This document shows, piece after piece, positions 1-49,635 of a stretch of 64,000 nt of DNA. This stretch comes from Streptomyces sp. NBC_01224. GTDB lineage: Bacteria; Actinomycetota; Actinomycetes; Streptomycetales; Streptomycetaceae. Position 1 is the first letter of the stretch; each line of letters opens with the position of its first letter. Below the pieces are notes generated by a model. It worked only from the letters and a program-made list of their open reading frames with translations. It was not told where the DNA came from and made no database searches. Made by a program: the position numbers and the translations under genes. Where the stretch lies: positions 62,001 to 126,000 of the forward strand of contig NZ_CP108529.1 in the NCBI RefSeq assembly GCF_036002945.1, given 5' to 3'.

Positions 1-1
1 G

Positions 2-1120: not shown

Positions 1121-1258
1121 GGCGCCGCCGAACGGCACCTGAGCCGCCGCTGACCGGCCGCCCGTAGTCAGCACGGCGCGGCGCGCCCGTCCCCGGGTGC
1201 GCCGCGCCGGTTCCCGACCCGTATGAACACCTGCCGAACCATGACGAAGGAAACCCGC

Positions 1259-5400: not shown

Positions 5401-6183
5401 CTGTCCCTGGCCGGAGGCATGCCCGAGGCCCAACTCGCCCGGCTGCGTCCGCTGGTGAAGCGGCTCGTCGACGAGCTGTCCCGGGAGCTGGCCACCCGCC
5501 TGCGCCCGGCGCTCTCCGGTCTGGCCACCCCGCGCCCGACCCGACGGCCCGGCGGGCGCCTCGACCTCGCCCGTACCCTGCGGGCCAATCTCGCCCACAC
5601 CCGGCGGACGGAGGACGGCCGGCTCGTCGTCGTACCGGAGCGCCCGCTGTTCAGCACGCGGGCGAGCAAGGAGGCGGACTGGCGCCTGGTCCTCGTCGTC
5701 GATGTCTCCGGTTCGATGGAGGCGTCGGTGATCTGGTCGGCGCTGACGGCCGCGGTCCTCGGCGGGGTTCCGACCCTGTCCACGCACTTCTTGGCCTTCT
5801 CCACGCAGGTGATCGACCTGACCGATCGGGTCGAGGATCCGCTGTCGCTGCTGCTGGAGGTCCGGGTCGGCGGCGGTACGCACATCGCGGCCGGTCTCGC
5901 GCACGCGCGTTCGCTGATCACCGTGCCGAGCCGCACGCTCGTCGTCGTGGTCAGCGACTTCGAGGAGGGCGCACCGCTCGGCGGGCTGCTGGGCGAGGTG
6001 CGTGCCCTGGCGTCCTCCGGCGCCCACCTGCTGGGCTGCGCGGCGCTCGATGACACCGGCACGCCGCGCTACTCGGTGTCCGTGGCGCGCCAACTCGTCG
6101 CGGCCGGTATGCCGGTGGCCGCCCTCAGCCCGCTCGAACTCGCCCGCTGGGTGGGCGACCGCCTCCGTGGAGAACCCCGTTGA
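2410..6183 (+). CDS. DUF5682 protein fused to a C-terminal VWA domain (YehM-YehP-like fusion)
   Basis: About 1257 residues from a TTG start that overlaps the ATPase stop as TTGA. The N-terminal ~270 residues contain GVRHHSPA, VVCVELP and AVIGAFHAPAL. This G-x-H / E / G-x-x-H spacing recalls TraB/Tiki-like proteins (inference). The middle is helical and Ala/Leu rich. The last ~170 residues are a VWA domain with a complete metal-ion-dependent adhesion site: DVSGS near residue 1096, the Thr of GGGTH and the Asp of VSDFEEG. In E. coli the two halves are separate proteins (YehM, YehP) and their summed size fits this one. The fusion supports the two halves working together with the MoxR ATPase. An ATG-like alternative start inside the upstream gene (2374) is less likely. 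Confidence 0.82.
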   Translation: MTTVDPRTAVDALAASRAPYLLGVRHHSPALAAVVPALLEEARAEVVCVELPTDFQPWLEHLADPETVTPVALAGAGEGGRLSFYPFADFSPELAAVRWARSRGVEVVCCDLPLGDPRWSAGALGPVREQDGSEAVRPEADAPLGATGALDASPDPAPGDGTTRVRRSYAEALAAAGTGRDGDDLWDRAVEVLAPGCAPDAVRRAALGVGWALRADAAVPAADLAREERMRQVIASASADGRRVAAVIGAFHAPALLASTEADAGTEAGAGTAGVSGATGRAAVPSEAAPRGAGPRTWGSGTDAAGVSAAGRAGEDGAAATEGSAVTSLVPYSFDLLDSRSGYPAGIRDPLWQQAVLTAAGDPERIREAAADAVTGLCREMRRGGHTAGTGEAAETLRLACDLAALRGLPAPGRGELLEAVTTVLGQGEPLGRGRALARALEAVFIGTARGRISPHAPRSGLGPSVEAELAELRLPRPDDPDRRDLRLDPLRSPLDGRREVLLQRLLVIGASYGEPLDVASTGDGTALGTRWRLTWTPSVPARLDLAGVRGVTAAQAAAGTLAATARHEAAEGGPTPAQILTGLTAAARCGLPELVDARLYEASVVLPDSADLPELLQALDLLEGLRRGHYPDTMQGARTTAGALTEELLEAAVRSLPGLAGSDSGAAAGALVALADRTAARHLGLRLDRALAELAAEGSPLIQGAALAVRVLLDLDDAAELGERTAGWIDGATAPDTRRALAKRLAGLLTAAGPLLQASPDALAALMDRVDALADQDFLDRLPALRGGFDTLAPAARDRLLTTVTERLGDRLDLSLDAPPELLALWAAADAAGSAALKALGLPGADADADADAGTDPGSDSADNPGPVPPPAADSAAADDADRRLGRADRWRLLLGRHKERLTCDARRYAHALDELYGRGRGEGAQDLAGGAPGQGGGQDPSFPTAREWAQELEALFGTDVREEVLAEAADAGRTDVLAQLDPASVRPSVELLGSVLSLAGGMPEAQLARLRPLVKRLVDELSRELATRLRPALSGLATPRPTRRPGGRLDLARTLRANLAHTRRTEDGRLVVVPERPLFSTRASKEADWRLVLVVDVSGSMEASVIWSALTAAVLGGVPTLSTHFLAFSTQVIDLTDRVEDPLSLLLEVRVGGGTHIAAGLAHARSLITVPSRTLVVVVSDFEEGAPLGGLLGEVRALASSGAHLLGCAALDDTGTPRYSVSVARQLVAAGMPVAALSPLELARWVGDRLRGEPR

Positions 6184-8051
6184 GCACCGAACTCCTGCCT
6201 CCCGTCGCCCCCGACGTCCTCGCCGACGCCGTGGAGCAGCTCAGCGCACGGCTGCGCAAGAAACTCGACGCGGCGATCTCGGGCTGCGCCGACCAGGCCT
6301 CCACCACGGCCGACGGGGCAGCCGAGGTCCACTTCGGCGAGGACGCCACGGTCACGCTGCGCCCGGGCCCGTCCGGCACGGTCACGAACGCGGAACAGGC
6401 CGTGTGCACCTGCCTGTTGGCCCCGCGCTGCCTGCACCGGGCCGCGGTCCTGGGCGCGGCACCCATCGCCGGTGGGGAGGACGACACGGGCGGGGGTGAC
6501 GACTCGGGTACGGGCAAGGCCGCAGGCTCGGGCACAGCCTCCGACACGGGCGCGGGCCCCGAGGAGGCCGCACCCACCGCCCCAGCCGCCGACGTTGCGG
6601 CCACGGTGGTCTCGCCGGCCGCACTCACCGCGGCGCAGGTCCTTGCCGCCACGGCGCTGTGGGACGCCGCCGCCGAAGCCCTGTCCGCCGGCGTCACGGC
6701 GGGCGGCGCCGTGGTGCAGGCCGAGCTGCTCCGCGCCGCCCACACCGCGCGGCTGGCCAGGTTGCCGCGGGCCGAAGCGGCGGCGCTGCGAGTCGTACGG
6801 AGCCTGAGGGCTGCGCGGGAGCGGAGCGAGGGACAACGTCTCGCCGACCTCACCGGAGCCTTCCGTGAGCTGCTGGCCGGCACCGCCCTGCTCGCCTCCG
6901 GGTCGGCCGACACGGAGGCGGCGGGCTCCGCGCGCCGGGTCTACGAACAGGGCGGCAGCCTGCGGGTGTACGGCCTGTGCCGGGAGCCGGTGCTGTCCGC
7001 GACGGGGTACGGCGGAGTGACCACGCACCTGGTCGGTTCGGACGGCGCCGGTTACACGGTGTCCGACGTGCGCCCCGGTGGCCTCGCCCGCGTGAAGGGT
7101 GCGGGGTCCGCGTCCGTGGCGCTCGGCGGTGCCGTCCTCGACCACGCCGGGCTGGCGCGCGGGGGTCTGCGGATCGTTGGCGCGACCGTCTCTGTGGACG
7201 GGCGGCTCGGGGCAGGACGGGGGGTCAGCGCGACGCCACTGCGCGGGGTGGACTGGTCCGAGGAACCCGCCGCCGTCCTCTTCACCCGACCAGTGCAGGA
7301 GGCGATGGCCGCTGTGCTCGCCGACGGCGCGCCCGAGGCGGGCGGGCCCGGCAGGACGGCGCCGAGCCTGCTGGGCTGCGACGTCGAGGTGATCGGTGCG
7401 GCCGGCGAGTCTGTCGTCGTCCGCGTCGCCGGTGGGGGATCGCTGCTGCGGCTCCGCCCCGCACACCCCCACCCGGAGCTGCCGCACGCCGCCAACCTGC
7501 GCCGGATCGCCGAACACCCGGGGCTCGCCCTGCGCGTGCTCGGCCGTCCCGACCTGGACCGGGCGGCGACGCTCCAGTCGCTGGCGGTCGGGCCGGTGCC
7601 GGGGGCGTCCGCCACGCTGCGGCTGCCAGACGCGTGGAAGGGCCGTGCCGACCTGGGCTACGACCGGCTCCAGGGCGAGCACTTCCCCCGCGAGACGGCG
7701 GGATCCGCGGACTGCGGGCCGGTCACCGCGGGCCCCGACCCGCTGGCGGAGGCACCGCTGTGGCGTGTCCGCCGCCTGCTGGAGACGGGCGTCGCGGGCG
7801 GTCGCCGTGCCGTGGCCGAGGCGGGCCGCGGGACGGACGCGGCCTCGCTCTCCGCCCGCCTGACCCGGGCGGAACTCGGCGTAGCGGCCCACCTCGCACA
7901 GGCCCTGACAACGGAGGCGGGCCGCCGCCCCCGCGACACCTTCGGCCGCCTGACCGACCCCTCGGCCGACGCCTACGCGAGGGCCTGGCTCGCCTCGGCG
8001 GTGCACCTGGCGGCTGCGGAACGCTCGCTGGTGGCCGCGTCCTGGTCGTGA
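6180..8051 (+). CDS. SWIM zinc-finger protein (YehQ-like)
   Basis: 623 residues. A SWIM-type zinc motif C-x-C-x5-C-x-H is seen as CTCLLAPRCLH, with ligands C76, C78, C84 and H86. The rest is Ala-rich with no enzyme motif that I recognise. SWIM fingers bind DNA or proteins in other families; the role here is unknown. The TTG start at 6180 overlaps the preceding stop in the same TTGA arrangement as the gene before, so the last two junctions of this operon use identical coupling. A strong hairpin follows 9 nt after the stop, so this is probably the last gene of the operon. Confidence 0.85.
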   Translation: MSTELLPPVAPDVLADAVEQLSARLRKKLDAAISGCADQASTTADGAAEVHFGEDATVTLRPGPSGTVTNAEQAVCTCLLAPRCLHRAAVLGAAPIAGGEDDTGGGDDSGTGKAAGSGTASDTGAGPEEAAPTAPAADVAATVVSPAALTAAQVLAATALWDAAAEALSAGVTAGGAVVQAELLRAAHTARLARLPRAEAAALRVVRSLRAARERSEGQRLADLTGAFRELLAGTALLASGSADTEAAGSARRVYEQGGSLRVYGLCREPVLSATGYGGVTTHLVGSDGAGYTVSDVRPGGLARVKGAGSASVALGGAVLDHAGLARGGLRIVGATVSVDGRLGAGRGVSATPLRGVDWSEEPAAVLFTRPVQEAMAAVLADGAPEAGGPGRTAPSLLGCDVEVIGAAGESVVVRVAGGGSLLRLRPAHPHPELPHAANLRRIAEHPGLALRVLGRPDLDRAATLQSLAVGPVPGASATLRLPDAWKGRADLGYDRLQGEHFPRETAGSADCGPVTAGPDPLAEAPLWRVRRLLETGVAGGRRAVAEAGRGTDAASLSARLTRAELGVAAHLAQALTTEAGRRPRDTFGRLTDPSADAYARAWLASAVHLAAAERSLVAASWS

Positions 8052-36990: not shown

Positions 36991-37541
36991 AGAGTGCCAT
37001 TGTCGACGCCGTGCGATCGGCGAGGACCCAGCAGGCCAAGATCGTCCGGTTCTTAACCGCGGGGCCCACCAGCGCTGCGTGTACAGATCAACTCCAGTAA
37101 ACTGATCGTGTTTTAGGAAGTGGCAAGGCCGCGAGTCGACTGCGTGCGATGGCGGGAAGCACCAGATGTAGCCTGCGTTCGCCGTCCTCAACGGAGCTCT
37201 GATGTACCTGTTCATTTGTGTTCAGCGGGCTCCGCCCTGCGACCGTTGCCGGGGCCGGGAGTTGCGCGAGGGCCGGCCGGACGGACGACGCCGCCTGTGA
37301 GGATCGCGCCGTTGGAGCCTTGGCCGGGTCGGGCCATTCACCGGGCCACGTCTCGGCTTCGCAGTCGTTTGTCTGCGGTGCCACTTCTTCGCCCTGCATG
37401 AACGGTCCACACATTATTCACGAATTGCCACATTGTTACTCCTGTCCGCCAGTTCTCCGGAGGCCGCACTCATCCCCTATGGGGGAGTGAATCGCTGCGC
37501 CGCCTTCGAAGGCTCGACCCCGACCCCTAGGACCACCCTCC
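36991..37541. other. Intergenic region upstream of the conservon
   Basis: No convincing gene. It is locally A/T richer than its surroundings around 37085-37115 and 37405-37440, where the conservon promoter probably lies, but I cannot identify -35/-10 boxes with confidence. Confidence 0.45.
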
Positions 37542-38936
37542 GTGACCTTGTCCTCAATAATCGCCCTTGCCCTCGGCGTCTTGTCCCTCCTCCTAGCAGT
37601 CGGGGCGCTGCTCCTGGCACGCTCGCGCCGCAAACACGTACGACGGGGCAGAGACTTGTCCGCGGAGGCGCAGGCCGCCAATTCCCGTGCGCAGGCTGCC
37701 GAGGGCCGCGCCCGAACCGAGGTGCAGAACAGGCAGACCGCAGAGTCCCGCACGAAGGAACTCAATACCCGCGAGGCGGAGCTTCTCGACGAAGTGCGTC
37801 ACCTCGCCTCTGCGCGACTTCCCGCTGTCGCACTGCACCTGATCAGCTCTCATCACCCCGTCCCCGGACTGCTGCACAAGAGTCTCGCGGGGTCCGAGGC
37901 TGCACAGCTCCTCGACGCCCTGCCCGAAGCTGTTTCTGGCATCGTCCTCAAGGAGAGGCGCCGCATCGACGCCGCTGCTCGGGCTGCCCTGCGCGGTGCA
38001 ACTCAGGAGTCCCAGGCACTTTCCTACCGTCTGCAGACGAATATCGTGGGTCTACAGCACGAGTTCAGCGCGCCGCCCAGCCTGACGCGGAGCCTGCTTG
38101 AGTCCGACCACCTCAATGAGCAGAACCTGCGCCTCACGCAGAGAGCCGCCATCGTGTGCGGAGGCTGGCCGGGTCACGTCCGCAAGGACACTTACGTGAG
38201 CGAGGTCGTCAGTGGTGCCTCCTCACGACTGCGCGGCTTCGACCGCATCAACATCGTTTCTCGGCTGGGCCTTTCCAACATCGGCGTGGTCGGGCGCGCG
38301 GCCGAGCCTGTTGCTGTGGTCTGCGCCGAGCTGATGGCCAACGCACTGGAGCACTCCCGTGACGACCTCATGGTGGACGTCGGCCTGATCCAGACCGGCA
38401 ACGGCAGTGTGTGCATCACGATCGACGACGCCGGCAAGGGCATGACCTCAGAAGCGCTCGCCCGCGGCCGAAGTCTGATATCGGGTGAACAGCAGGAGGT
38501 GATGCTCCTCGAGCTCGGCGACCCGCCGTCCATGGGCTTCGCCGCCATCGGCCGTCTCGTCGCCGACTACGGCCTCCACGTCTCCATCGACACTTCCTCT
38601 CCCTATGGCGGGGTGCGCGCTGTGGTGTCCGTTCCCGAGAACTTGCTGACCTCGATCGACGAAAACGCCACACCTCCGTCGGTCATGGCTCCCCAACCCG
38701 CCGTGGCACCCCAGGCCCACAAGCGGCCCGCCACTGCCGACTCGCCCGCGCACTCGCCCGCGCCGACCGCCGCAGCGGAGCTGCCGCAGCGCCGCCGCCG
38801 TTTCTCAGCGACCGCCACCAATGATGACGCCGCCGCAGCAGCGCCCCGCCCCTTGGACCCGGAAAACACCGGTGCCATCTGGAGCGATTTCCAAAGTGGC
38901 CTCACCAGCGGCCGGTCCGCCACCGATTCGGAGTAA
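37542..38936 (+). CDS. cvnA: Conservon protein CvnA (membrane-anchored ATPase, kinase-like)
   Basis: 464 residues. One membrane segment at the N-terminus (SIIALALGVLSLLLAVGALL) is followed by an Ala/Arg-rich coiled stretch and a GHKL ATPase domain: N-box VVCAELMANALEHS, G1 box TIDDAGKGMT and GDPPSMGFAAIGRLVADYG. No HisKA dimerisation domain with phospho-acceptor His is seen, as usual for CvnA. The last ~90 residues are Pro/Ala rich and disordered. In S. coelicolor conservon Cvn9, CvnA-D form a membrane-associated complex likened to G-protein signalling. First gene of cvnABCDE here, GTG start, 5 nt before cvnB. Confidence 0.92.
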   Translation: MTLSSIIALALGVLSLLLAVGALLLARSRRKHVRRGRDLSAEAQAANSRAQAAEGRARTEVQNRQTAESRTKELNTREAELLDEVRHLASARLPAVALHLISSHHPVPGLLHKSLAGSEAAQLLDALPEAVSGIVLKERRRIDAAARAALRGATQESQALSYRLQTNIVGLQHEFSAPPSLTRSLLESDHLNEQNLRLTQRAAIVCGGWPGHVRKDTYVSEVVSGASSRLRGFDRINIVSRLGLSNIGVVGRAAEPVAVVCAELMANALEHSRDDLMVDVGLIQTGNGSVCITIDDAGKGMTSEALARGRSLISGEQQEVMLLELGDPPSMGFAAIGRLVADYGLHVSIDTSSPYGGVRAVVSVPENLLTSIDENATPPSVMAPQPAVAPQAHKRPATADSPAHSPAPTAAAELPQRRRRFSATATNDDAAAAAPRPLDPENTGAIWSDFQSGLTSGRSATDSE

Positions 38937-38941
38937 ACACT

Positions 38942-39379
38942 GTGACCATGCCTGAAGCCCACGAAGAGACCGGCCCGTCCGCCTGGGTCCTGAAGCCCAT
39001 CACCGAAATCCGTGGCGTCCGGCACGCCCTGACCATGACTCTCGACGGGATGGTCCAGGTCACCTCCGAGAACCTCACCAAGGACGAGGCAGACGGCATA
39101 GGTGCGATGACTGCCGCGCTGCACTCCGCCTCTCGCGCCGCCACCAACGCCGTTTTGGGAGCCCCTCCAAGCACTCCACTCACGACCGTCACCTCACACA
39201 ACGATCGGGGTACCTACATGGTCATGCCGGTCGGCGAAGGAACCAACACCCTGATCGCGGCAGCGGGCGATGAGGACATGCCCATGGGGGTGGTCGCGGC
39301 CACCATGGCCCGCCAGGCAATGAAACTCGGGGAACAGATCATGTCCGTTCCCGCCCGTACCAGCGACGGGACGTCATGA
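38942..39379 (+). CDS. cvnB: Conservon protein CvnB (roadblock/LC7)
   Basis: 145 residues from GTG 38942 (ATG 38948 two codons later is an alternative). Roadblock/LC7 fold: VRHALTMTLDGMVQVTSENL at the first strands and EGTNTLIAAAGDEDMPMGVV in the last part. Roadblock proteins in other bacteria act on small GTPases; here the GTPase is CvnD. The stop overlaps the start of cvnC by 4 nt (ATGA, 39376-39379). Confidence 0.9.
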   Translation: MTMPEAHEETGPSAWVLKPITEIRGVRHALTMTLDGMVQVTSENLTKDEADGIGAMTAALHSASRAATNAVLGAPPSTPLTTVTSHNDRGTYMVMPVGEGTNTLIAAAGDEDMPMGVVAATMARQAMKLGEQIMSVPARTSDGTS

Positions 39380-39759
39380 GCCGCGGCCAGGAACAGCGAC
39401 GGCTGCTGCCGGCCTACCTTGCGACCGGAACCAGCCCCGGCACCGGCCTCTCGGGCACCCTCGATTCGCTGGCCGCTCTGCGTGCCAGTGGTCTGCCCCT
39501 CGCCAGGTACCACACGGCGGTGCACCAGCGCGTGATCGAGCTGCTTACCGACGGATCTCTCAGCGTCGTCGAACTGGCCGGCTATCTCGGCCTCCCGGTC
39601 AGCGTGACTCTGGTGCTCGCCGAACAACTTGTCACTGACGGTCAGTTAAAAGCCAGCGTCCCGATTCCGGACGCTCTCCGCGCGTCGAACGATGGCCGAC
39701 CGTCGAAAGAAGTTCTGGAAGAGGTTCTGAGTGGACTCCACGCTCTCCTTGCCGCCTAG
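39376..39759 (+). CDS. cvnC: Conservon protein CvnC (DUF742), contains a TTA codon
   Basis: 127 residues of the DUF742 family: LLPAYLATGTSP, then a winged-helix-like part with HQRVIELLTDGSLSVVELAG and LVTDGQLKASVPIPD. Codon 91 (39646-39648, Leu of DGQLKA) is TTA, the rare codon read by the bldA tRNA in Streptomyces, so translation may need that developmental tRNA. cvnD begins 29 nt before its stop, so a block here could also lower cvnD and cvnE. Confidence 0.9.
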   Translation: MSRGQEQRRLLPAYLATGTSPGTGLSGTLDSLAALRASGLPLARYHTAVHQRVIELLTDGSLSVVELAGYLGLPVSVTLVLAEQLVTDGQLKASVPIPDALRASNDGRPSKEVLEEVLSGLHALLAA

Positions 39760-40351
39760 CTCGCCTCCCGTCTACCTGCCTGAGGGAGAACACCGAAGGA
39801 TCAAGATCCTCGTTGCCGGCCCGCTCGGTATCGGCAAGACGACCGTAGTCAAGTCGCTGTCGCAGATTCCGACACTGCACACCGACGAGGTCATGACGAA
39901 CGCGGCGGTCGCTACCGATGACCTCAGTCACGATGTCCTGCGTGACAAAACCACCACCACGGTCGCCATCGACTTCGGCCGTCTGACTCTGCCAGGCGAC
40001 AAGATCGTTCTGTACCTGTACGGAACTCCCGGGCAGCGCCGCTTCCTTCCTCTGTGGGAAGGCATCGCGTTCGGAGCACTTGGTGCCCTCGTCCTGGTCG
40101 ACACCCGGCGGCTCAAGGACTCCTGGGAAGTGATGGAACTCATCGAGGAGCGCGGTTTGCCGTACGCCGTCGCTGTCAATGTCTTCCCTGACTCACCCAA
40201 ATACGACTTGGCGCTCATCCGTTCGAAGCTCGACCTCGCCCCAGAGACCCCACTGGTCACCTGTGACGCACGGGAGAAGAACAGCGGCCTCCACGCCCTC
40301 ATCCAACTGACCGCCCATTCCATATCCGTTGCCGGAGTCGAAGCCTCGTGA
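39731..40351 (+). CDS. cvnD: Conservon protein CvnD (Rab-like small GTPase)
   Basis: 206 residues. P-loop GPLGIGKTTVVKSL near residue 30, a conserved Thr region TTTTVAIDFGR, and the G3-equivalent YLYGTPGQRRF in place of a plain D-x-x-G, as in other CvnD/MglA-like GTPases. The G4 site reads AVNVFPDS, not NKxD, so guanine specificity may be unusual or relaxed. It starts inside cvnC (29-nt overlap) and its stop overlaps the start of cvnE as GTGA. Confidence 0.92.
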   Translation: MDSTLSLPPSSPPVYLPEGEHRRIKILVAGPLGIGKTTVVKSLSQIPTLHTDEVMTNAAVATDDLSHDVLRDKTTTTVAIDFGRLTLPGDKIVLYLYGTPGQRRFLPLWEGIAFGALGALVLVDTRRLKDSWEVMELIEERGLPYAVAVNVFPDSPKYDLALIRSKLDLAPETPLVTCDAREKNSGLHALIQLTAHSISVAGVEAS

Positions 40352-41640
40352 CGCTCACACCAGCCGAAGCACCTGTGTCCCTGCATGGGGCCGAACACGC
40401 CGCGAACCCGCAGCGCAGCTATGAACTGCTGCGCCGGCAGGGGCCGGTCGGCGTAGCCGAGGTGGCCCCCGGTGTCGTGGTCAACCTGGTCACCGACTAC
40501 CGGGCCGCCCTAGACCTCCTCCAGGACTCCGATACGTGGACCAAGGACACCCGGAGCTGGCTGCCGCAGGTGCCGGAGGACAGCCCGATCCGGCCCCTGG
40601 TGGAGTGGCGGCCGAGTCTGTTCTTCGCCGACGGCGAGGCGCACGCGCACCTGCGACGTGTGATCACGGACAGCTTCGGTCTCCTGGACCCCCATGATGT
40701 GCGCGTCCTGACATTCCGCTATGCCGACACGCTGCTCCAGGAATTCGCTGATACCGGGACGGTCGACCTCGTCCGCCAGTACGCGCAGCAGCTGCCCCTG
40801 ATGGTCTTCAACGCTCTGTTCGGTATGCCGGACGAGGAAGGGCCTCGGCTTGTGTGGGCGCTCGAGGCGATGATGGACAGTGATCCGGAGAAACAGGCAG
40901 CGGGCGCACAGTCGTTCGGCGCCTACCTCGAAACCCTCTACGGGACCAAGGCGGCACAGCGCGGCCACGACTTGACCTCCTGGTTCATCGATCACCCCAA
41001 TGGGCTGAGCCAGGAAGAGGCCGTCAACCAGGTCCTCATCACCCTCGGGGCCGGGAACGAGCCACTGTGCAACCTCATTGCCAACACGCTCGTCCGCATG
41101 CTCAGCGACGACCGCTATTTCGGCACCCTGACCACCGGAAGCCTGCCCATCCAGCACGCCATCGATGATGCGCTGTGGCACGACGCGCCGCTGGCCAACT
41201 ACAGCGTCCACTTCCCCAAGAAGGACGTGACCTTCCACGGCGCTCGCATCCCCGCAGGCTCGCCCGTCATGGTGTCGTACGCCGCCGCCAACACCTGCCC
41301 CCACTCAGGCGTGCCGGCGGACGGCTATCGCTCTGGGAAAAAGGCGCACCTGGCCTTCGCTGCAGGGCCCCATGCGTGTCCCGCCCGTGACGTCGCCACG
41401 CTGATCGCCACCGCCGCCATCGAGAGGCTCCTGACCTACCTGCCGGACATCGAACTGGACGTTCCCGCCGACAGGCTGACCTACCGCCCTGGGGCTGTCC
41501 ACCGGACGCTCACCGCGCTCCCGGCCCGGTTCACCCCGCTGACGCCCGACGCCAACGGGGCCACCCCCTGGAGCCGGAGCCCCTCCCGCCCCGAGCGGGA
41601 CACGCCATTGGCCCCGACGTCAGGCAGCGCTAAGGCGTAG
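40348..41640 (+). CDS. cvnE: CYP157-like cytochrome P450 of the conservon (CvnE), no ExxR motif
   Basis: 430 residues. The heme ligand is C344 in AFAAGPHACPARD. The I-helix reads TLGAGNEPLCNLIANTL, without the usual acid-Thr pair. At the K-helix, where almost all P450s have E-x-x-R, this protein reads DDALWHDAP (D273-D274-A-L-W277). Loss of the motif is known for the CYP157 family (EQSLW in S. coelicolor CYP157C1), and many conservons end with a CYP157 gene. Whether such proteins oxidise anything or act as sensors is not settled. The start overlaps cvnD by 4 nt. Confidence 0.9.
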   Translation: MTLTPAEAPVSLHGAEHAANPQRSYELLRRQGPVGVAEVAPGVVVNLVTDYRAALDLLQDSDTWTKDTRSWLPQVPEDSPIRPLVEWRPSLFFADGEAHAHLRRVITDSFGLLDPHDVRVLTFRYADTLLQEFADTGTVDLVRQYAQQLPLMVFNALFGMPDEEGPRLVWALEAMMDSDPEKQAAGAQSFGAYLETLYGTKAAQRGHDLTSWFIDHPNGLSQEEAVNQVLITLGAGNEPLCNLIANTLVRMLSDDRYFGTLTTGSLPIQHAIDDALWHDAPLANYSVHFPKKDVTFHGARIPAGSPVMVSYAAANTCPHSGVPADGYRSGKKAHLAFAAGPHACPARDVATLIATAAIERLLTYLPDIELDVPADRLTYRPGAVHRTLTALPARFTPLTPDANGATPWSRSPSRPERDTPLAPTSGSAKA

Positions 41641-41668
41641 AAGCCCTCCCACCTGCCGTCGATCGTCG

Positions 41669-41713
41669 TGTCGCGGTGGTGCCGCCCGGAAGCCGGCCGA
41701 CACCACCGCGACA
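41669..41713 (+). terminator. Hairpin between the conservon and diterpene genes
   Basis: TGTCGCGGTGGTG at 41669-41681 pairs perfectly with CACCACCGCGACA at 41701-41713, a 13-bp stem with a 19-nt loop, in the 164-bp gap between cvnE and the prenyl synthase. It could end the conservon transcript or limit read-through into the pathway genes. Confidence 0.6.
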
Positions 41714-41804
41714 GCCCCAGGGAGGAGACGCGGGTCCGTGGCCCCGTCCTCTGCAACAACGGAACCGCGACGACGGTTCTCGAACGAAAGAGGATCAACC
41801 GCCG

Positions 41805-42884
41805 GTGACACAAACCCTTCCTCCGGGACTGCCCGACCTCACTTCCCTACGACAGCAGGTGGGCGCGGCTCTGACCGGATTCCTGGACACCAAGGAAAGT
41901 GCTGCACCAGGAACCGAGCTGCTCTACCTGACCACCGCCCTGCGCGGACTCCTGACCGGCGGAAAACGTTTTCGGTCCCTGCTGTGCCTGTACGGATGGC
42001 AAGCCGCCGGAGCAACAGGCGACATGACTGCTGCCGTCCGCGCTGCCGCCAGCCTCGAACTTTTCCAAGTGTTCGCCCTGGTACACGACGACGTGATGGA
42101 TGACAGCGACATCCGTCGCGGCCAGCCGTCCGCCCACCGGGCACTGGCCACCGCGTATACCGACGGCGGCGGCCCGGGCAGCAGGGCCGAGGCGCACGGA
42201 CTGGGCGCGGCCGTCCTCCTCGGAGACCTGGCCCTGGTGTGGTCCGATGAACTGCTCCGCACAGCGGACCTCAGTCCGGGGCGACTGGCACAGGTGCTAC
42301 CCCTGGTGGCCGAAATGCGGAGCGAGGTCATGTACGGCCAGCTCCTGGATCTGCAGACCACCGGCCGCCTTGCCGGCGACGTGGATACGGCACTGCACGT
42401 TATTCGATACAAGACGGCTAAATACACCATAGAACGGCCCCTGCACATAGGGGCGGCAGTGGCCGGAGCGACCCCGCCCGTACTCGATGCTTGCACCGCC
42501 TTCGGCATACCGCTAGGAGAAGCGTTTCAGCTGCGGGACGACCTGCTCGGGGTCTTCGGTGATCCGGCAAAGACAGGCAAACCAATACTGGACGACCTGC
42601 GCGAGGGCAAGGCCACCGTCCTGATGGCGCTCGCGGTCCAGCGAGCCTCCACGGCCGAACTGAAAACGCTGCGCGAGCTCGTCGGCCGAAGCGACCTCAA
42701 CGAGGAACATGCGGCCGCGGTCCGCACGATCCTGAACTCCACCGGCGCCCGGCAGACCGTGGAGGAAATGATCACCACACGACGGGCGGCAGCCCTCGCC
42801 GCCCTGGACAACGCTCCCTTCCCGGGAAGTGCCACAGCCTCCCTGCGCCGACTCGCCCGGGACGCAACGGCCAGGCAGACATAG
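41805..42884 (+). CDS. Polyprenyl (probably geranylgeranyl) diphosphate synthase
   Basis: 359 residues from GTG 41805 with AAAGAGGA about 11 nt upstream. The first Asp-rich motif is VHDDVMDDSDIRRG (D95-D96...), the second LRDDLLGVFGDPAKTGKP (D245-D246), with the substrate-binding GGKRFRSLLCLYG. This is a short-chain trans-prenyltransferase condensing IPP with allylic diphosphates. Residues before the first motif (FQVFAL) fit a C20 product, and the next gene needs GGPP; both are inference. First gene of the diterpene set; the stop is 47 nt before the cyclase gene. Confidence 0.92.
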   Translation: MTQTLPPGLPDLTSLRQQVGAALTGFLDTKESAAPGTELLYLTTALRGLLTGGKRFRSLLCLYGWQAAGATGDMTAAVRAAASLELFQVFALVHDDVMDDSDIRRGQPSAHRALATAYTDGGGPGSRAEAHGLGAAVLLGDLALVWSDELLRTADLSPGRLAQVLPLVAEMRSEVMYGQLLDLQTTGRLAGDVDTALHVIRYKTAKYTIERPLHIGAAVAGATPPVLDACTAFGIPLGEAFQLRDDLLGVFGDPAKTGKPILDDLREGKATVLMALAVQRASTAELKTLRELVGRSDLNEEHAAAVRTILNSTGARQTVEEMITTRRAAALAALDNAPFPGSATASLRRLARDATARQT

Positions 42885-42931
42885 GGCATCGCCGCACACC
42901 GTCATCACAACCCCGAGGAGGAAGTCGCCCC

Positions 42932-44530
42932 ATGAGCATCAGCACACCCATCGGCACGTCCTACGCCGAACGAGCCACCAGCCTGGTGGCCAGGGTCGAC
43001 CAGGACAGATGGGGAAGCGTCCGCCCCTCCCTGTACGAAACAGCCCGCGTCCTCTCGGCAGCGCCGTGGCTGCCCGGGGAGCCACTGCGGATCTCGTACC
43101 TGTTGGAACAGCAGGCGCCCGACGGCAGTTGGGGGGAGGGACCGCTGCCCTACCGGCTCCTGCCGACACTCAGCGGGGTGGAGGCCGCACTGGCGGTCCT
43201 GCGAAGGGGCACCACGTCCGCAGAGGTCACCGGCCGGCTCACGGCCGCGGTGAACAGGGGCCTCGACGTACTGCGATCACTGCCACCGGTGTGCCCGTGG
43301 CCGGACACGGCCGCAGCAGAAATACTCGTACCCAGCCTGGTAGCCGAGATCAACGAGAAGCTGAACTCCCTGACCACCGGCGAGCACACGCCGGATTTCG
43401 GTGGCCTCCGGCTGTCGGTTCCGGGCGGCTTCCACGCGTCGGCACCTGCTCGCGTGGCCGGCCGGTACGAGTCGGCGGGCAGCCTACCCGTCAAGTTTCA
43501 CCACACGTTCGAAGGCATAGACGGCTACATACCGCTCTCTCTCGTCCCTGACATCGAAGGCCTGCTGGGCAGCTCGCCGGCCGCCACTGCGGCGCGGGCA
43601 ACGCGGTCACCTGCTACTACCGCTCAGGCCGTCGCCGACCTCACCGCAGTGGCGCAGCGCTACGGCGGTCTCTTCCCCGAGGCCGCGCCCCTCCGCGTGG
43701 TCGAACGGCTATGGGTCGCCGCCGCGCTGGCGCGCGCCCACCTGCCCGCTGCCGCTCTTCCCACTGTCCGCGGGTGGGCCGAGGAGATCTACGATCCTCA
43801 AGGCGTGCGCGGTGCGCCCGGCCTCATGACCGATGCCGACGACACCGCTATGGCGGTGCTGGTTGCCTCGCTCGTCGGCCTGCCGTACGACCCGGCACCG
43901 CTGGACCTGTTCCACAACGGCAGCCACTACGACTGCTACATCGGCGAGGACACCGGATCGGTCACCGCGAACGCCCACGCCCTCCAGGCCCTCGTGAGCT
44001 ATCTGCGGCACTACCCGACGGCAGAGCACACATACGGCCCCCGAGCGGCGAAGCTGTGCGACTGGCTGGCCGACCAGCAGCAACCCGAAGGACATTGGAC
44101 CGACAAGTGGCACGCCTCCCCCTACTACGCCACCGCGCGAAGCGTCACCGCGCTCGCACAGTACGGCGGCCACCACGCGTCCAGGGCCGTCCAGAGCGCC
44201 GCCGCGTGGACAACTGACACTCAGCGCGCCGACGGCTCCTGGGGCGTGTGGGGCAGCACTGTCGAAGAAACCGCATACGCCGTCAAAATCCTGCTGAGCG
44301 CCGCCACCCCCACACCGCAACCGCAGCAGAACCGGGCCCTGGACCTTGCCGAAACGTACCTGCACGCCGCCTCGCACCCCGGCCACCAGCACCCCGCCCT
44401 GTGGCACGACAAAACCCTGTACGCGCCCACCGCAGTGATCGAAGCGGAGGTGCTCGCTGCACAAGAGTTGCTGCGGGCACGTCGCGCAGCCGCATGTACA
44501 GAAGCAGATATGGAAAGGACGGACGCGTGA
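42932..44530 (+). CDS. Class II diterpene cyclase (copalyl diphosphate synthase-like)
   Basis: 532 residues. The class II acid motif is D301-A302-D303-D304 (MTDADDTAMAVL), which protonates the terminal double bond of GGPP to make a bicyclic (labdane-type) diphosphate. A QW-like turn QQAPDGSWGEG is near residue 52 and GSWGVWGSTVEETAYAV near the end. No DDxxD is present, so it has no class I activity of its own. GAGGAGGAAG sits about 8 nt before the ATG. The length is normal for bacterial enzymes. The P450 gene overlaps its stop (GTGA, 44527-44530). Stereochemistry of the product cannot be told. Confidence 0.92.
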   Translation: MSISTPIGTSYAERATSLVARVDQDRWGSVRPSLYETARVLSAAPWLPGEPLRISYLLEQQAPDGSWGEGPLPYRLLPTLSGVEAALAVLRRGTTSAEVTGRLTAAVNRGLDVLRSLPPVCPWPDTAAAEILVPSLVAEINEKLNSLTTGEHTPDFGGLRLSVPGGFHASAPARVAGRYESAGSLPVKFHHTFEGIDGYIPLSLVPDIEGLLGSSPAATAARATRSPATTAQAVADLTAVAQRYGGLFPEAAPLRVVERLWVAAALARAHLPAAALPTVRGWAEEIYDPQGVRGAPGLMTDADDTAMAVLVASLVGLPYDPAPLDLFHNGSHYDCYIGEDTGSVTANAHALQALVSYLRHYPTAEHTYGPRAAKLCDWLADQQQPEGHWTDKWHASPYYATARSVTALAQYGGHHASRAVQSAAAWTTDTQRADGSWGVWGSTVEETAYAVKILLSAATPTPQPQQNRALDLAETYLHAASHPGHQHPALWHDKTLYAPTAVIEAEVLAAQELLRARRAAACTEADMERTDA

Positions 44531-45906
44531 CTCCCGACATAGATGTGACTGCCGACATGGACGTTCCGCCGACCGCTCCGGGGCGGCTGCCGCTCATCGG
44601 ACACGTTGTACCCCTGCTCAAGGACCGCCTGGAATTCGTCGAACGCCTGCGCACATACGGGCCGATCGTCCGTATGTCGGTCGGCCCCAAGAAGGTGACC
44701 GTGGTCAACTCTCATGAGCTGATCCACGAGATGCTCACCAGCAAGTCCGGCTCCTTCTCCAAGGGGTTGCTGGGCGAGAAGCTCAAGCTTTTCGGTCAGT
44801 CGGCCCTGCCGGTCGCGGAAGGCGAGCCCCATCTGCGTCGGCGCCGCCTGCTCCAGCCCGCCTTCCACCGCGAGCGGATCAGCGGGTACGTCAACACAAT
44901 GCGGGAAACGGTGGAGCCATCCATCACGGGCTGGCGTGAGGGGGAACTGCTCGACCTGAAGACCGAAATGGGGCTCATGGCACAGGACGTGGCCATGTCA
45001 GTGCTGTGTTCCTTCCGCGCGGAGCAAGAGCGGGCGCGCGCGATCCTCGACGCCGTCGACACGGTCTTCACGGCCGCCATCTGGCGCACCATGGTGCCCG
45101 TGTCCTCGCTGGAACGGCTGCCCACCCGCAGCAACCGGCGGCTCAAGGCCGCCCGCAGCCTGCTGCGCAGCGAGGTGGCGGACATCATCGCGGAGCGCCG
45201 GGCGGACCCCCACGCCCACGACGACCTCGTGACGCTGCTCCTGGAGGCCCGGGATCAAACCGGTGCGCCACTGCCCGACAACGAGATCCTGTCGGAGATC
45301 ATCGGGCTGCTGGCCGCGGGCTCCGAGACGACGGGAGTCATGCTGGCCTGGCTGTTCCACGAGCTGGGCCGCGACCCCGAGCTGGAGCGCAGGCTGCACG
45401 AGGAGGTCGACTCCGTGGTCGGAGAGGGCCCGATCACCGCCGAGCACGTCCCCCAACTCACCTTCACCCGCAGACTGGTCAGTGAGACCCTGCGCCTGCA
45501 CCACGCCGGCTGGCTGGTGACCCGGCAGGCCACCAAGCCCGTGCGCCTCGGGCAGGTCAGCCTCCCGGCGGGGGAGCAGGTGCTATGGAGTCCCTACGCA
45601 CTGCACCGGGACCCGGTCCTGTACTCCGACCCGCTGTGCTTCGACCCCGACCGCTGGCTGCCGGAGCGTCCCCAGCCGCCGAGGGGAGCCTTCATCCCCT
45701 TCGGGTCAGGAAAACGCATGTGCATCGGCGACGCGTTCGCCTGGACGGAGGGGATAGTCATCACGGCGTTCATCGCGTCCCGCTGGCGGTTGCGGCCCGT
45801 TCCCGGCGCCACCGTGGAGCCGATCGGGCTGCTCACCGTGCACCCGTCGGACCCCCGTATGGTCGCCGAAACCAGGCAGCGGGCCGTCGCGAGGACAGCC
45901 GCATGA
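44527..45906 (+). CDS. Cytochrome P450 of the diterpene cluster
   Basis: 459 residues from GTG 44527, overlapping the cyclase stop. All hallmarks are present: I-helix AAGSETTGVML near residue 264, K-helix E320-T-L-R323, FDPDRWLPER, and heme loop FGSGKRMCIGDAFA with C399. The CYP family cannot be named. It is translationally coupled on both sides (GTGA at the start, ATGA at the end), so it almost certainly works in the same pathway, oxidising the diterpene hydrocarbon or alcohol. It needs a ferredoxin and reductase from elsewhere; none is encoded nearby. Confidence 0.92.
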   Translation: MTPDIDVTADMDVPPTAPGRLPLIGHVVPLLKDRLEFVERLRTYGPIVRMSVGPKKVTVVNSHELIHEMLTSKSGSFSKGLLGEKLKLFGQSALPVAEGEPHLRRRRLLQPAFHRERISGYVNTMRETVEPSITGWREGELLDLKTEMGLMAQDVAMSVLCSFRAEQERARAILDAVDTVFTAAIWRTMVPVSSLERLPTRSNRRLKAARSLLRSEVADIIAERRADPHAHDDLVTLLLEARDQTGAPLPDNEILSEIIGLLAAGSETTGVMLAWLFHELGRDPELERRLHEEVDSVVGEGPITAEHVPQLTFTRRLVSETLRLHHAGWLVTRQATKPVRLGQVSLPAGEQVLWSPYALHRDPVLYSDPLCFDPDRWLPERPQPPRGAFIPFGSGKRMCIGDAFAWTEGIVITAFIASRWRLRPVPGATVEPIGLLTVHPSDPRMVAETRQRAVARTAA

Positions 45907-46868
45907 GCCACACCCGCAGCTCGGACGCGCGTACCCTGCCGATGCCCGACCTCCGAGGCTCTTTCCCCGGCCCCTTCGCCACCAGCCCGTATGCCGACGC
46001 CATCGAGGAGCAGACCGCCCACTGGCTCCGGACCTTCCCCTTGATCGGTTCACCCGGCGAGGCGAAGGCCCTCTGCAACATCACGGCCCAGGGGGTGGCT
46101 CGTGTCCTGCCCACGGCGGACCGGGACGGCGTGTTCCTCTGCGCCGATCTCTTTCTGTGGCTCACCGCGTTCGACGACGTACACGGCGAGGCCGAAGGAG
46201 GCCGTGACACCGCCCGTCTGGTCCGCCGCATCAGTCACTGTGTCCATCTGCTGGCCGGCCACGACGAGCCGGCGGCCGATGACGACGCCTACACCGCCGC
46301 CCTGCGGGACCTCCTGCACCGGTTCCGGCAACGGGCCACGCCCACGCAGTACCTACGGCTCACCGCGCACGTGCGGGACAACCTTTTCGGCATCCTCTGG
46401 GAGGCCCATCACCTCGACAGGCCCGACCAGGTCACCCTGAGCGACTATTGCGCGATGCGCCCACACACAGTTTTCGTCCGGACCGTTATGGCGACCGCGG
46501 AAGTCGCGCTCAGGTACGAACTCACCGAGGATCAGCGAGCCTCGGCAGCGGTGCGGGAACTGGAGCAGGCCATTGCCGACCTTGCCGGGTGGATCAACGA
46601 CCTTGCCTCGTACGCGAAGGAGACAGATCGCGGTGGCCCGCCCCCTCTGAGCCTGCCGACACTGCTGATCCGACACCGCGAGTGCGACCTCGAAGGGGCG
46701 TTCCGCCTGGCCTCCCGCATGTGTGAAGACCAAGCCTCCACCGCACGCCTTCGAATCACCGAACTCTCCGTCAACGGCAAGAACCCACTCGCGGATCACG
46801 CTCGCGCCGTGGAAGCCGTCGCAGCCTCCTACGTGTGGCACATAGGGCACGCCCGCTACGAGGGCTGA
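45903..46868 (+). CDS. Class I terpene synthase
   Basis: 321 residues from ATG 45903 in the ATGA overlap with the P450. The metal motifs are D91-D92-V-H-G-E96 (AFDDVHGE) and the NSE triad N232-D-x-x-S236-x-x-x-E240 (NDLASYAKE), with the C-terminal R318-Y319 pair (HARYEG). This is a normal bacterial class I fold. It ionises the allylic diphosphate, here presumably the bicyclic product of the class II enzyme, giving a cyclised or eliminated diterpene. A longer open frame upstream is antisense-like noise within the P450. Confidence 0.92.
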   Translation: MSHTRSSDARTLPMPDLRGSFPGPFATSPYADAIEEQTAHWLRTFPLIGSPGEAKALCNITAQGVARVLPTADRDGVFLCADLFLWLTAFDDVHGEAEGGRDTARLVRRISHCVHLLAGHDEPAADDDAYTAALRDLLHRFRQRATPTQYLRLTAHVRDNLFGILWEAHHLDRPDQVTLSDYCAMRPHTVFVRTVMATAEVALRYELTEDQRASAAVRELEQAIADLAGWINDLASYAKETDRGGPPPLSLPTLLIRHRECDLEGAFRLASRMCEDQASTARLRITELSVNGKNPLADHARAVEAVAASYVWHIGHARYEG

Positions 46869-47290
46869 TCTGCGCGGTGTGCGGGGACCCGACGACCGAG
46901 TCCCCGACCGTGTACAGCCGGGCGCGCGGCATGCGAGGGAGGCCCGTACGCGGATCCGGCGACCGCCCGATATCTGACGTGGTCGGCTTCGCCGAGCACC
47001 TCTTCTGGGCTCTGTACAGGTTGGATCGCAAGGAGTACGGCGAGGGACTGACGGGTGATGCGTTCCTGTATGCCCGGGCTGCGGTCGTCGGAGCCGGCTG
47101 TGAGGAGTGCGAGAAAGTACTTCGAGACCCAGCGCGGTTCGTGCCGTTCGTCAACAACCTCGTCTGGGCTGAGGCTCTGCTCTACGTACCCGACAACGCA
47201 TACGAGCGCCTCACCGGCGATGAATGGGACCGCAACACCCGATACAGCCACGAGTCGTACTCCAACGCGGCCGCGTGGACCAACGCATAG
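46835..47290 (+). CDS. Hypothetical protein after the terpene synthase
   Basis: 151 residues from GTG 46835, overlapping the synthase end by 34 nt; GTG 46877 would remove the overlap. Sequence such as SDVVGFAEHLFWALYRLDRK and VVGAGCEECEKVLRDPARFV has codon use like the neighbours. Four Cys (CAVC and CEEC) could bind a metal, but I recognise no family. It may be the last gene of the diterpene operon. Confidence 0.55.
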   Translation: MAHRARPLRGLICAVCGDPTTESPTVYSRARGMRGRPVRGSGDRPISDVVGFAEHLFWALYRLDRKEYGEGLTGDAFLYARAAVVGAGCEECEKVLRDPARFVPFVNNLVWAEALLYVPDNAYERLTGDEWDRNTRYSHESYSNAAAWTNA

Positions 47291-47346
47291 CCCCCAGCAG
47301 GCACTCCCACCTCACCATTTGAAACGACGTCAAGACTGCTGGAGAT

Positions 47347-48037
47347 CTACTTCCAGGCCGCATGGCAGGTGCTCAAGTACGGCAGGTGCCCATCCCCCTC
47401 GACGGCTGTCAGTGCCTTCGCGGGCCGAAGGCTGATGTGGCCGGTCGCATCGATATCGAATCCCCAGGAGAATCCGGCCACCGGCAGGACGCGCCGCTGG
47501 ACCTGGTCCAAAGGTGTCCAGGCCAGGAAGCTATGAACGAGCCAGGCCATGGGCTTGCGTTCGGCTCGTGACATGGCGTCGAAAAGAGTGGGGCTGACGC
47601 CGAAGAAGGCGTAGGGGGACGGCGCATCTTCGAACAGGACGAATGGGTCCTTATCGAAGTCGACGCCGCCGGAGAGTTGCCTGTGGAACGGACCAGCTGG
47701 ACCCAGCCGAACAGGGATCGATACCCCTGCCGGAATAGTCCACGGCAGCCGTACGGCACGGAAACCCGCGCGTTTCAGGGCTCGGAGTACCAGATCGTGA
47801 ACCGATCCGCCAAAGATGCAGTAGCCGGTCGACGACGCACAGCCGCTGCCCGTAGGGGCCGGACAACTGGGCGTTGTGGCCGAGGACGAACATGCCGACG
47901 GCCCCAGTCGACGTGACGGCTGTCCCAGGATTCGCCACCAAGGGAGAACTGATCGCCGCATTCGGCGTGTTGGCGGTATGCCAACGCCCCCGTCCAGGCT
48001 GCCAGTTCACGGCCCTTTGCACATGCTCTAGAGCCAC
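47347..48037 (-). pseudogene. Frameshifted gene of unknown family
   Basis: From 48037 the minus strand reads MALEHVQRAVNWQPGRGRWH to GHNAQLSGPYGQRLCVV. After a shift near 47825 the natural sequence continues as GYCIFGGSVHDLVLRALKRA, AFFGVSPTLFDAMSRAERKP, LPVAGFSWGFDIDATGHISL and ends HLPYLSTCHAAWK. Joined it would be about 225 residues of an apparently conserved but unnamed Streptomyces protein. One indel separates the halves. Confidence 0.65.
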
Positions 48038-48273: not shown

Positions 48274-49635
48274 TTGATAACTATCGCATCGCGGGTGTTT
48301 TCGCGAATAAACTGCAGAATTACGTTCGCCTCGTGGCGTCAACCACGGGTGATGCTGTGGGCCACGGCGACAGTGGTGGCCCTCGGTTTCCTCATCGCGC
48401 TGGAGATCGCCGCGCGTCGCTACGGTCTGCCGGGGCCGATCACCACCCAGGTACAAGAGGTGGTATTCGCCCCCAAATCGGGTTTCCTGTTGTACGCCAG
48501 TATGGCGTTGATGATGGTGGTGCTCACCTGGCGGCAACGGTTCATCGCGGCTGGTGCCGCGATCGGCATCGACGTCACCTTCTCGCTGGTGCGGTGGGCG
48601 GCCGACGTCAAGGTGACCGACGGCCACCCCTTCGGCAACGGCGCGTTGTGGGTGATTTTGGGCTATGCGGTCATCGCTGTCACGCGCCGCACAGGCCGGG
48701 AACGTGTCCTGCTACTGAAGGGCGTCGGGCTGGGGCTGCTGCTGGTGGCCGGCCGCAAGACCGGCGATACCTGGCTACTCATCACGTCGAAGACCCGCCC
48801 GGCGGTGCTCGACCAGTACGTGGCAACCGCCGATCACGCGCTGGGCAACCCGTCGTGGCTGGTAGGCCGGATTGTCACGGCCACCGGCCCGATCGGCGCC
48901 CGTTTTCTCGACTACGTCTACACTCAGCTTGCGGTGGCCGCGGTCCTTGTCGCGCTGTACCAGCTGCGTAACGTGGCGGTCGAGCGCCGCTTCCCGGGCC
49001 ATCATCTCGTACGCACCTTCCTGGTCATCGGCCTCCTCGGGCCCGGCATCTACATGATCTACCCGGTGGTCGGACCGATCTTCGCCTACGGCGCCGACGG
49101 CGGACACTGGGCGGTGGCCAACCTGTGGCCGGACACGCCGCCGCCGGTCAATGTCCCGCACCAGATGCCGTTCGACGAGATCACCCCACGCAACTGCATG
49201 CCCAGCCTGCACACGGCGTGGGCTACCGCGATCTTCATTCATTCCCGCAAGGGCCCACGGAGTCTGCGATTCGCAGGCGCGTTCTGGCTGATCGCCACGC
49301 TCGGCGCAACGCTCGGCTTCGGCTACCACTACGGCGCGGATATCGTTGCCGGCGTGGTGTTTACGCTCACGATCGAGGCAGCTCTGCGCTCGCTCGAACG
49401 TGGCTGGGACCGCTCAGGAATCCAGCTGGTCATCTACGGTGCAACGGTCTTCGCTGCGCTCTTGGTGTCATATCGCTATCTGCCGATGGAGATGGCGAAA
49501 CATCCGTGGGTGGCTGGACCACTTCTCATTCTGGCGATGACCTCAGTGATCCTCTGCTACGTACGGACCACCAAACTGTGGGAACCGAAGGCGGCACCAG
49601 CGCGGCAACCGGAACCGCAACCCGAACTGGTTTGA
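48274..49635 (+). CDS. PAP2-family integral membrane phosphatase/phosphotransferase
   Basis: Up to 453 residues with about ten membrane segments. The PAP2 catalytic motifs are the C2-type CMPSLHTAWA and the C3-type FGYHYGADIVAGV (His and Asp). This arrangement fits PAP2_3/Aur1-like proteins that remove or transfer phosphate groups of lipids at the membrane. The first start is TTG 48274; GTG 48349 or ATG 48352, just before the first membrane segment (MLWATATVVALGFLIALEIA), may be the true one. The upstream 150 bp are A/T rich and probably hold the promoter. Confidence 0.85.
   Translation: MITIASRVFSRINCRITFASWRQPRVMLWATATVVALGFLIALEIAARRYGLPGPITTQVQEVVFAPKSGFLLYASMALMMVVLTWRQRFIAAGAAIGIDVTFSLVRWAADVKVTDGHPFGNGALWVILGYAVIAVTRRTGRERVLLLKGVGLGLLLVAGRKTGDTWLLITSKTRPAVLDQYVATADHALGNPSWLVGRIVTATGPIGARFLDYVYTQLAVAAVLVALYQLRNVAVERRFPGHHLVRTFLVIGLLGPGIYMIYPVVGPIFAYGADGGHWAVANLWPDTPPPVNVPHQMPFDEITPRNCMPSLHTAWATAIFIHSRKGPRSLRFAGAFWLIATLGATLGFGYHYGADIVAGVVFTLTIEAALRSLERGWDRSGIQLVIYGATVFAALLVSYRYLPMEMAKHPWVAGPLLILAMTSVILCYVRTTKLWEPKAAPARQPEPQPELV

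Follow-up and report, generated by a model that had tools for sequence, protein, structure and literature searches.

We have analyzed a stretch of 64,000 nucleotides from the genome of Streptomyces sp. NBC_01224 (the window; 62-126 kb of contig 1 in a genome of 10.0 Mb and two contigs), in which a conservon, cvnA-E, is located just before the genes of a labdane-type diterpene pathway. Nine genes, all on the + strand, form two blocks, the conservon (37542-41640) and the enzymes (41805-46868), i.e., a geranylgeranyl diphosphate (GGPP) synthase, a class II diterpene cyclase, a cytochrome P450 and a class I diterpene synthase. The original prediction had placed the first block 164 bp upstream of the second on the same strand, and the open reading frames together with the Pfam and NCBIfam matches bear this out, the spacing being the one obtained when the GGPP synthase starts at the GTG at 41805. 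The order and strand of this unit were kept in 26 of 26 distinct loci, down to an identity of 48% in the class I protein. Judging from the sequences compared, we consider it likely that the unit is a dedicated and co-inherited control module that joins signalling to biosynthesis and is gated by development, the conservon probably being the pathway's own control switch. Gene content, linkage, codon and motifs are direct observations. New here are a TTA codon in cvnC, the state of the CvnE motifs, a covarying hairpin in the gap between the two blocks and a second pairing with a conservon of the NIT type.

Linkage of the conservon and the pathway in Streptomyces

Scanning genome contigs with the class I protein as query yielded 17 loci, one of them from Kitasatospora. 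All 16 with enough flank contained cvnA-E and the GGPP synthase, class II, P450 and class I genes in the same order and on the same strand, the 17th being a 5-kb contig. A separate class I search over 392 Streptomyces genomes yielded 15 matches, 14 at an identity of at least 48% (window included) and one at 34%; the other 13 of the 14 all carry the conservon and the 34% match does not. After merging, 26 distinct loci were available, and in every one we found cvnA-E and the GGPP synthase, class II and class I genes, the tailoring P450 being present in 25. Left out of this set were L025 (a 5-kb contig), L044 (the 34% outlier, without conservon), L045, L047, L050 and L052 (duplicates of L013, L023, L018 and L021, respectively) and L085, with cvnA-E, GGPP synthase and class II genes followed by the contig end before class I. 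The order is thus not unique to this strain, and its recurrence supports the earlier view of conservon and pathway as belonging together. The locus that lacks the tailoring P450, L043 (G065), has kept the conservon, GGPP synthase, class II and class I genes, and provides a natural test of whether the conservon needs the P450 product.

The linkage also holds from the side of the conservon. Searching the 392 Streptomyces genomes with CvnE gave 14 matches at an identity of at least 62%, all of them in loci with the unit or in G112, whose contig stops within the unit. The next-best match, at 55%, came from conservons in which cvnE is mostly followed by another P450 and the GGPP synthase, class II and class I enzymes are lacking. 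Four candidates per genome were scored in this search, which left the best matches unaffected, and none of the conservons of this clade detected in the 392 genomes stood apart from the pathway. The genome of the window has 12 places with DUF742, the CvnC studied here being the lowest scoring of them, and the nearest paralogue of its CvnD within the same genome is 62% identical. With 12 such places in 10.0 Mb, the chance of a conservon lying within 6.5 kb of a random gene, on one side and strand, is about 0.4%. A neighbourhood by chance is ruled out by the recurrence in other genomes, a stronger argument than this estimate.

The genes around the unit mostly differ from locus to locus. A gene-like match in the flanks was common to just 23 of the 325 pairs that can be formed with the 26 loci, 10 of these 23 within the group formed by the window and the four loci nearest to it, the flanks available being short (0.6-7.5 kb upstream and 0.9-10 kb downstream). 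Downstream of the class I gene of the window, a DUF4240 protein (46835-47290) and the next open reading frame (48274-49635) did not recur at other loci, and the end of the unit was therefore set at class I.

TTA codon, conservon proteins and intergenic hairpin

The only TTA among the nine genes of the window, a leucine codon of the bldA type, is codon 91 of cvnC (39646..39648, + strand). At this column TTA was found in 19 of 26 loci vs none of 19 paralogous conservons, and the leucine itself was invariant across the 26. Over the nine genes, TTA accounted for 24 of 8950 leucine codons (counted along the best match span per gene), 19 of the 24 being those at the CvnC column. The 19 loci have one of the features expected of a bldA-dependent pathway regulator, a conserved TTA in the regulatory gene of the cluster. 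In most loci CvnC would be made only with the bldA tRNA available, CvnD perhaps being gated as well through the overlap of cvnC and cvnD, and this gating would tie the switch to development.

The first four genes, all on the + strand, have the order and domains that define a conservon: cvnA (37542..38936), a sensor-kinase-like ATPase with a HATPase score slightly below the Pfam cut-off, cvnB (38942..39379), a roadblock/LC7 protein (Robl_LC7 PF03259, E 8.9e-8), cvnC (39376..39759), a DUF742 protein (PF05331), and cvnD (39731..40351), an MglA-like small GTPase with the motifs GPLGIGKT and GTPGQRRF. CvnA contains the N box ELMANALEHS, a candidate phosphorylated histidine at residue 190 and, in 26 of 26 loci, an LPQR near its C terminus, which fits the LPxR motif of the CvnA C-terminal extension that marks conservons (PMC4316618). 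The Pfam scan found no NIT domain in the CvnA of the window, and CvnE is present. This agrees with the rule by which a missing sensor domain is replaced by CvnE or CvnF, as both accompany CvnA proteins without an extracytoplasmic sensor domain, and CvnF8 stimulates CvnA8 (PMC13343842).

CvnE (40348..41640, + strand) is a CYP157-like P450 with an NCBIfam P450 match and no Pfam match at E 0.001. Its haem cysteine, within FAAGPHACPA in the window, was kept in the 25 of 25 loci that could be read, while the arginine of the ExxR motif was replaced by tryptophan in 26 of 26 (DDALW in the K-helix of the window). The same state, haem cysteine kept and E-x-x-W, has been described for CYP157 (PMC3599690). 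The I-helix motif varied by subclade (GAGNEPx or QGAAxxTL), and CvnE was, beside CvnD, the slowest-changing protein. In L048 (G224, a genome 88% complete) cvnE appears in three pieces, either by frameshift or by assembly error. Because the cysteine is kept and the arginine lost, CvnE looks more like a sensor than like an enzyme. That it is a second tailoring oxygenase, supplied or regulated by the conservon, would agree with the cysteine and with the slow change. We find such a role highly improbable given the tryptophan at every locus and an I-helix that differs between subclades; besides, loss of ExxR is general in CYP157 proteins of conservons without a pathway of this kind (PMC3599690). 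A role in control is made likelier by the degenerate CvnE together with the conserved TTA of cvnC.

Following what is known of conservons, CvnA, devoid of NIT, would read the state of its sensor subunit, a role proposed for CvnE with its P450 fold that binds haem but is without ExxR. CvnB and CvnC would set the GTP state of CvnD, and the output of CvnD would turn the pathway on or off, presumably through its transcription.

In the gap from cvnE to the GGPP synthase gene, a strong hairpin is present in most loci and was located in the window at 41669..41713 (+ strand) by folding and covariation. There, the whole gap folds with a z of -2.5, and 2 of 200 shuffles were equally good. Across 15 loci the 16 pairs held in 93.0% of cells and 6 of them had changed on both sides. 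The covariation score was matched in 0 of 500 shuffles and the number of pairs in 2 of 500, values that come from hand-trimmed sequences of 15 loci out of the 26, with the structure drawn from their consensus, and that are to be read knowing that kin sequences beat such shuffles more easily. The hairpin is not universal, L048 and L053 having weak folds and L023, L046 and L054 an unrelated stem. An intrinsic terminator was considered and rejected: the T-run is absent and the terminator scan (4 sites vs 4.3 expected) placed none at the hairpin. Terminator, attenuator and operator are the roles that come to mind, and we do not decide among them. From the conservation of this hairpin, the cvn and enzyme blocks may be separate transcripts or be linked by attenuation.

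Directly before the start of cvnA is found CCCCTAGGACC (37524..37534, + strand). The CCTAGGA in it recurs at this site in 19 of 26 loci, as read from the final alignment block, the starts of cvnA being estimates. It may be the -10 region of a cvnA transcript with almost no leader; no sigma-70 consensus promoter was found in 37000-47500.

A second pairing outside Streptomyces

More distant class II loci, from Streptomyces and beyond, were fetched as controls. The conservon was absent from 9 of 9 Streptomyces control loci (class II identity 36-42%) and present in 12 of the 13 from outside this genus. This second arrangement has another order, P450, class I (Sat1646-like), class II, cvnA (with NIT), cvnB, cvnC and cvnD, and in L119, where CvnA is of the NIT type, no CvnE-like gene was found after cvnD. 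Matches to the class II gene were found in 106 of 200 genomes (30 of 68 genera) of one family outside Streptomyces and in 35 of 121 genomes (13 of 44 genera) of another. Among 81 loci fetched outside the window-type arrangement, chosen mostly one per genus and not at random, 61 had cvnD downstream on the same strand. When class II was at least 47% identical to that of L119 the figure was 60 of 61, the remaining locus being cut off by the end of its contig, with cvnA still visible; below 47% it was 1 of 20, and two more had a conservon divergently upstream.

A link of all class II clusters to conservons is ruled out by the Streptomyces controls and by the loci below 47%. The same applies to terpene synthases at large: the six terpene-synthase-domain matches in the genome of the window are at five places, one being that of the window and the rest at least 36 kb from the nearest cvnD, and no conservon was found within 18 kb of the class I relative in G067 (34% identity).

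The members of the second arrangement, from two non-Streptomyces families, are L105, L116-L147, L150-L156, L160-L163, L166-L177 and L179-L183. There are also rearranged forms (L122, L146, L151, L184 and L186), in which either class II and its own cvnB-D are on one strand and the P450 and class I genes with conservon genes on the other, or the conservon is divergent from class II. L136, L140, L152 and L155 have an extra set of conservon genes beside the block of P450, class I, class II and cvn genes.

In the CvnD tree, the clade of the window joined the conservons of the CvnE type and the second clade those of the NIT type. The support of this split was 100; the program warned of long branches meeting, and the CvnE-type rows had been selected for their similarity to the CvnE of the window. 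In the class II tree unlinked clusters separated the two paired lineages (support 84), and L108, a Streptomyces row without linkage, was inside the second clade. As far as these trees indicate, two conservon lineages are tied to two pathways of the copalyl diphosphate (CPP) type.

The conservon and the enzymes could be plain neighbours, an ancestral adjacency inherited or transferred together without any functional tie. In both of these quick trees the 17 sampled loci group as a single clade (supports of 99 in the class II tree and 97 in that of CvnD), i.e., all window-type loci come from one pairing event, as this explanation would have it, and the unlinked Streptomyces controls are also in its favor. 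We consider it highly improbable, since the pair has remained intact while the flanks turned over and the P450 was lost once, free conservons of this clade were not found in the 392 genomes and the pairing exists a second time between other lineages of conservon and class II. An intact unit, an exclusive clade, protein distances of CvnA, CvnD and CvnE that follow those of class I, the TTA codon, a conservon kept in L043 after the loss of the P450 and the recurrence in a second lineage all argue for a functional pairing.

The diterpene enzymes and the role of the conservon

The enzyme block, also on the + strand, starts with the GGPP-synthase-like polyprenyl synthase (41805..42884; open reading frame, Pfam and NCBIfam), followed by the class II cyclase with a DADD motif (42932..44530), the tailoring P450 (44527..45906) and the LrdC-like class I synthase (45894..46868). 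The starts of the last two, GTG 44527 (ATG 44494 is possible) and ATG 45894, were placed by eye on the translation, and the slices used for the searches (44497-45906 and 45897-46868) are a few codons off, with the matches unaffected. The comparison with characterized synthases that the original prediction had proposed led to LrdC for class I (phmmer E 1e-92, 49% identity, following matches far weaker), whose solved structure 6oh6 is a labdane-related diterpene synthase, and to PtmT2 for class II (nearest solved structure, 5bp8, 302 bits). PtmT2 is an ent-CPP synthase; a cluster of the (E)-biformene type would use normal CPP. DxDD was present in class II and ND-V/L-AS-xxx-E in class I of 26 of 26 loci, and the DD motif of class I appeared as FDDxxxE in 24 of 26, the search pattern having picked another stretch first in the other two rows. 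The equivalents of LrdC Phe189 and Tyr317, which direct CPP to (E)-biformene (PMC9814573), are F and Y in all 26. The predicted route would go from GGPP to CPP and (E)-biformene, to be oxidized by the P450. Elsewhere in the window, G+C is 75-78% at 1-8000 vs 64-73% across most of the remaining sequence.

By gene content the enzyme half is a labdane cluster of the lrd/cld kind, to which lrdABDC of Streptomyces thermocarboxydus K155, cldABCD (cyslabdan), rmn (raimonol) and labdanmycin belong, the class I of the window being closest to LrdC. The gene order is alike as the name lrdABDC prints it, lrdA being presumably the GGPP synthase, lrdB class II and lrdD the P450. For this half, the earlier view that the set was not recognizable as a described cluster is not supported, given the match to LrdC. 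The lrd, cld and rmn clusters are described in PMC10301674; we found no mention of a conservon in the excerpts of that paper and of PMC9814573 that describe lrd and cld. The K155 locus may also have one, because it is present at the loci with class I 76-79% identical to LrdC (L046, L047/L023 and L054). The lrd cluster is termed cryptic in a title cited by PMC10301674.

Other conservons are found with biosynthetic genes. As in the window, Cvn8 of S. coelicolor adjoins a biosynthetic cluster, the lanthipeptide one that it represses (PMC8510531; PMC13343842), a precedent for the control proposed here. Its accessory protein is CvnF (GAF) and not CvnE (P450), and the excerpts of both sources do not describe one conservon clade recurring with one pathway across the genus. 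A conservon is present in every one of the indole prenyltransferase clusters, in some of them together with an additional P450, but these clusters make prenylated tryptophan and not diterpenes, and a regulatory test was not found in the text available (PMC3617294). In the frankiamicin fkm cluster the conservon fkmR1-R4 is inside and is a proposed regulator (PMC4383371), a single case of a type II polyketide. The terp1/sat clusters of Salinispora have P450, class I and class II genes as in the second arrangement (the class I of L119 and L123 match Sat1646 at 255 and 265 bits), and the descriptions available, unlike that arrangement, make no mention of a conservon. No link of conservons to terpenes or diterpenes was found in titles or abstract openings within the literature and terms searched.

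Several points weigh against a control module. The candidate phosphorylated histidine of CvnA is glutamine in 3 of 26 loci (L023, L046 and L054, the subclade nearest LrdC), so phosphotransfer is not the rule at all loci. TTA is missing from the CvnC column in 7 of 26, although two of the seven have it at another CvnC codon. The correlation of protein distances with those of class I (r of 0.91 for CvnA, 0.91 for CvnD and 0.94 for CvnE; 17 loci, 0 of 2000 permutations each) is also expected from plain shared descent. In favor of the module, the cld, rmn and lrdABDC clusters yielded labdanes in heterologous hosts (PMC10301674), and from the cld and lrdABDC products the chemistry can probably do without the conservon; this conclusion is indirect, with the exact inserts unseen. 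Finally, on the opposing side, the unit encodes no DNA-binding output protein. This last point would suit a conservon that acts on the enzymes and not on transcription, with CvnD-GTP binding an enzyme and controlling its activity or recruiting the pathway to the membrane. The strict adjacency in both arrangements is also in line with it, and a precedent exists in MfpB, which binds MfpA, encoded right after a mycobacterial conservon (PMC4316618). We regard direct control of this sort as unlikely, since the best studied effect of a Streptomyces conservon on its neighbours is on transcript levels (Cvn8 on lan, PMC8510531) and the lrd and cld clusters are functional in other hosts (PMC10301674).

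A conservon that switches its own pathway could also respond to it. It is conceivable, though we would not expect it, that the labdane-related diterpenoids of actinomycetes are signals with their own G-protein receptors, the ligand being what the linked pathway makes. CvnE, binding the terpenoid without turnover, would then sense inside the cell in Streptomyces, and the NIT domain of CvnA would do so outside the cell in other families. If so, a dependence of the conservon on the diterpene, and not just the reverse, would account for the pairing having originated at least twice.

Streptomyces genomes carry about a dozen conservons. For learning what these systems sense and control, a conservon clade exclusive to one pathway offers a closed test system, with a single candidate for the input, a single cluster as output, four enzymes to measure and a conserved codon open to recoding, and it would give a handle on silent labdane clusters. 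The second arrangement, widespread in one family by its class II gene, indicates that the tie between conservons and diterpenes is general.

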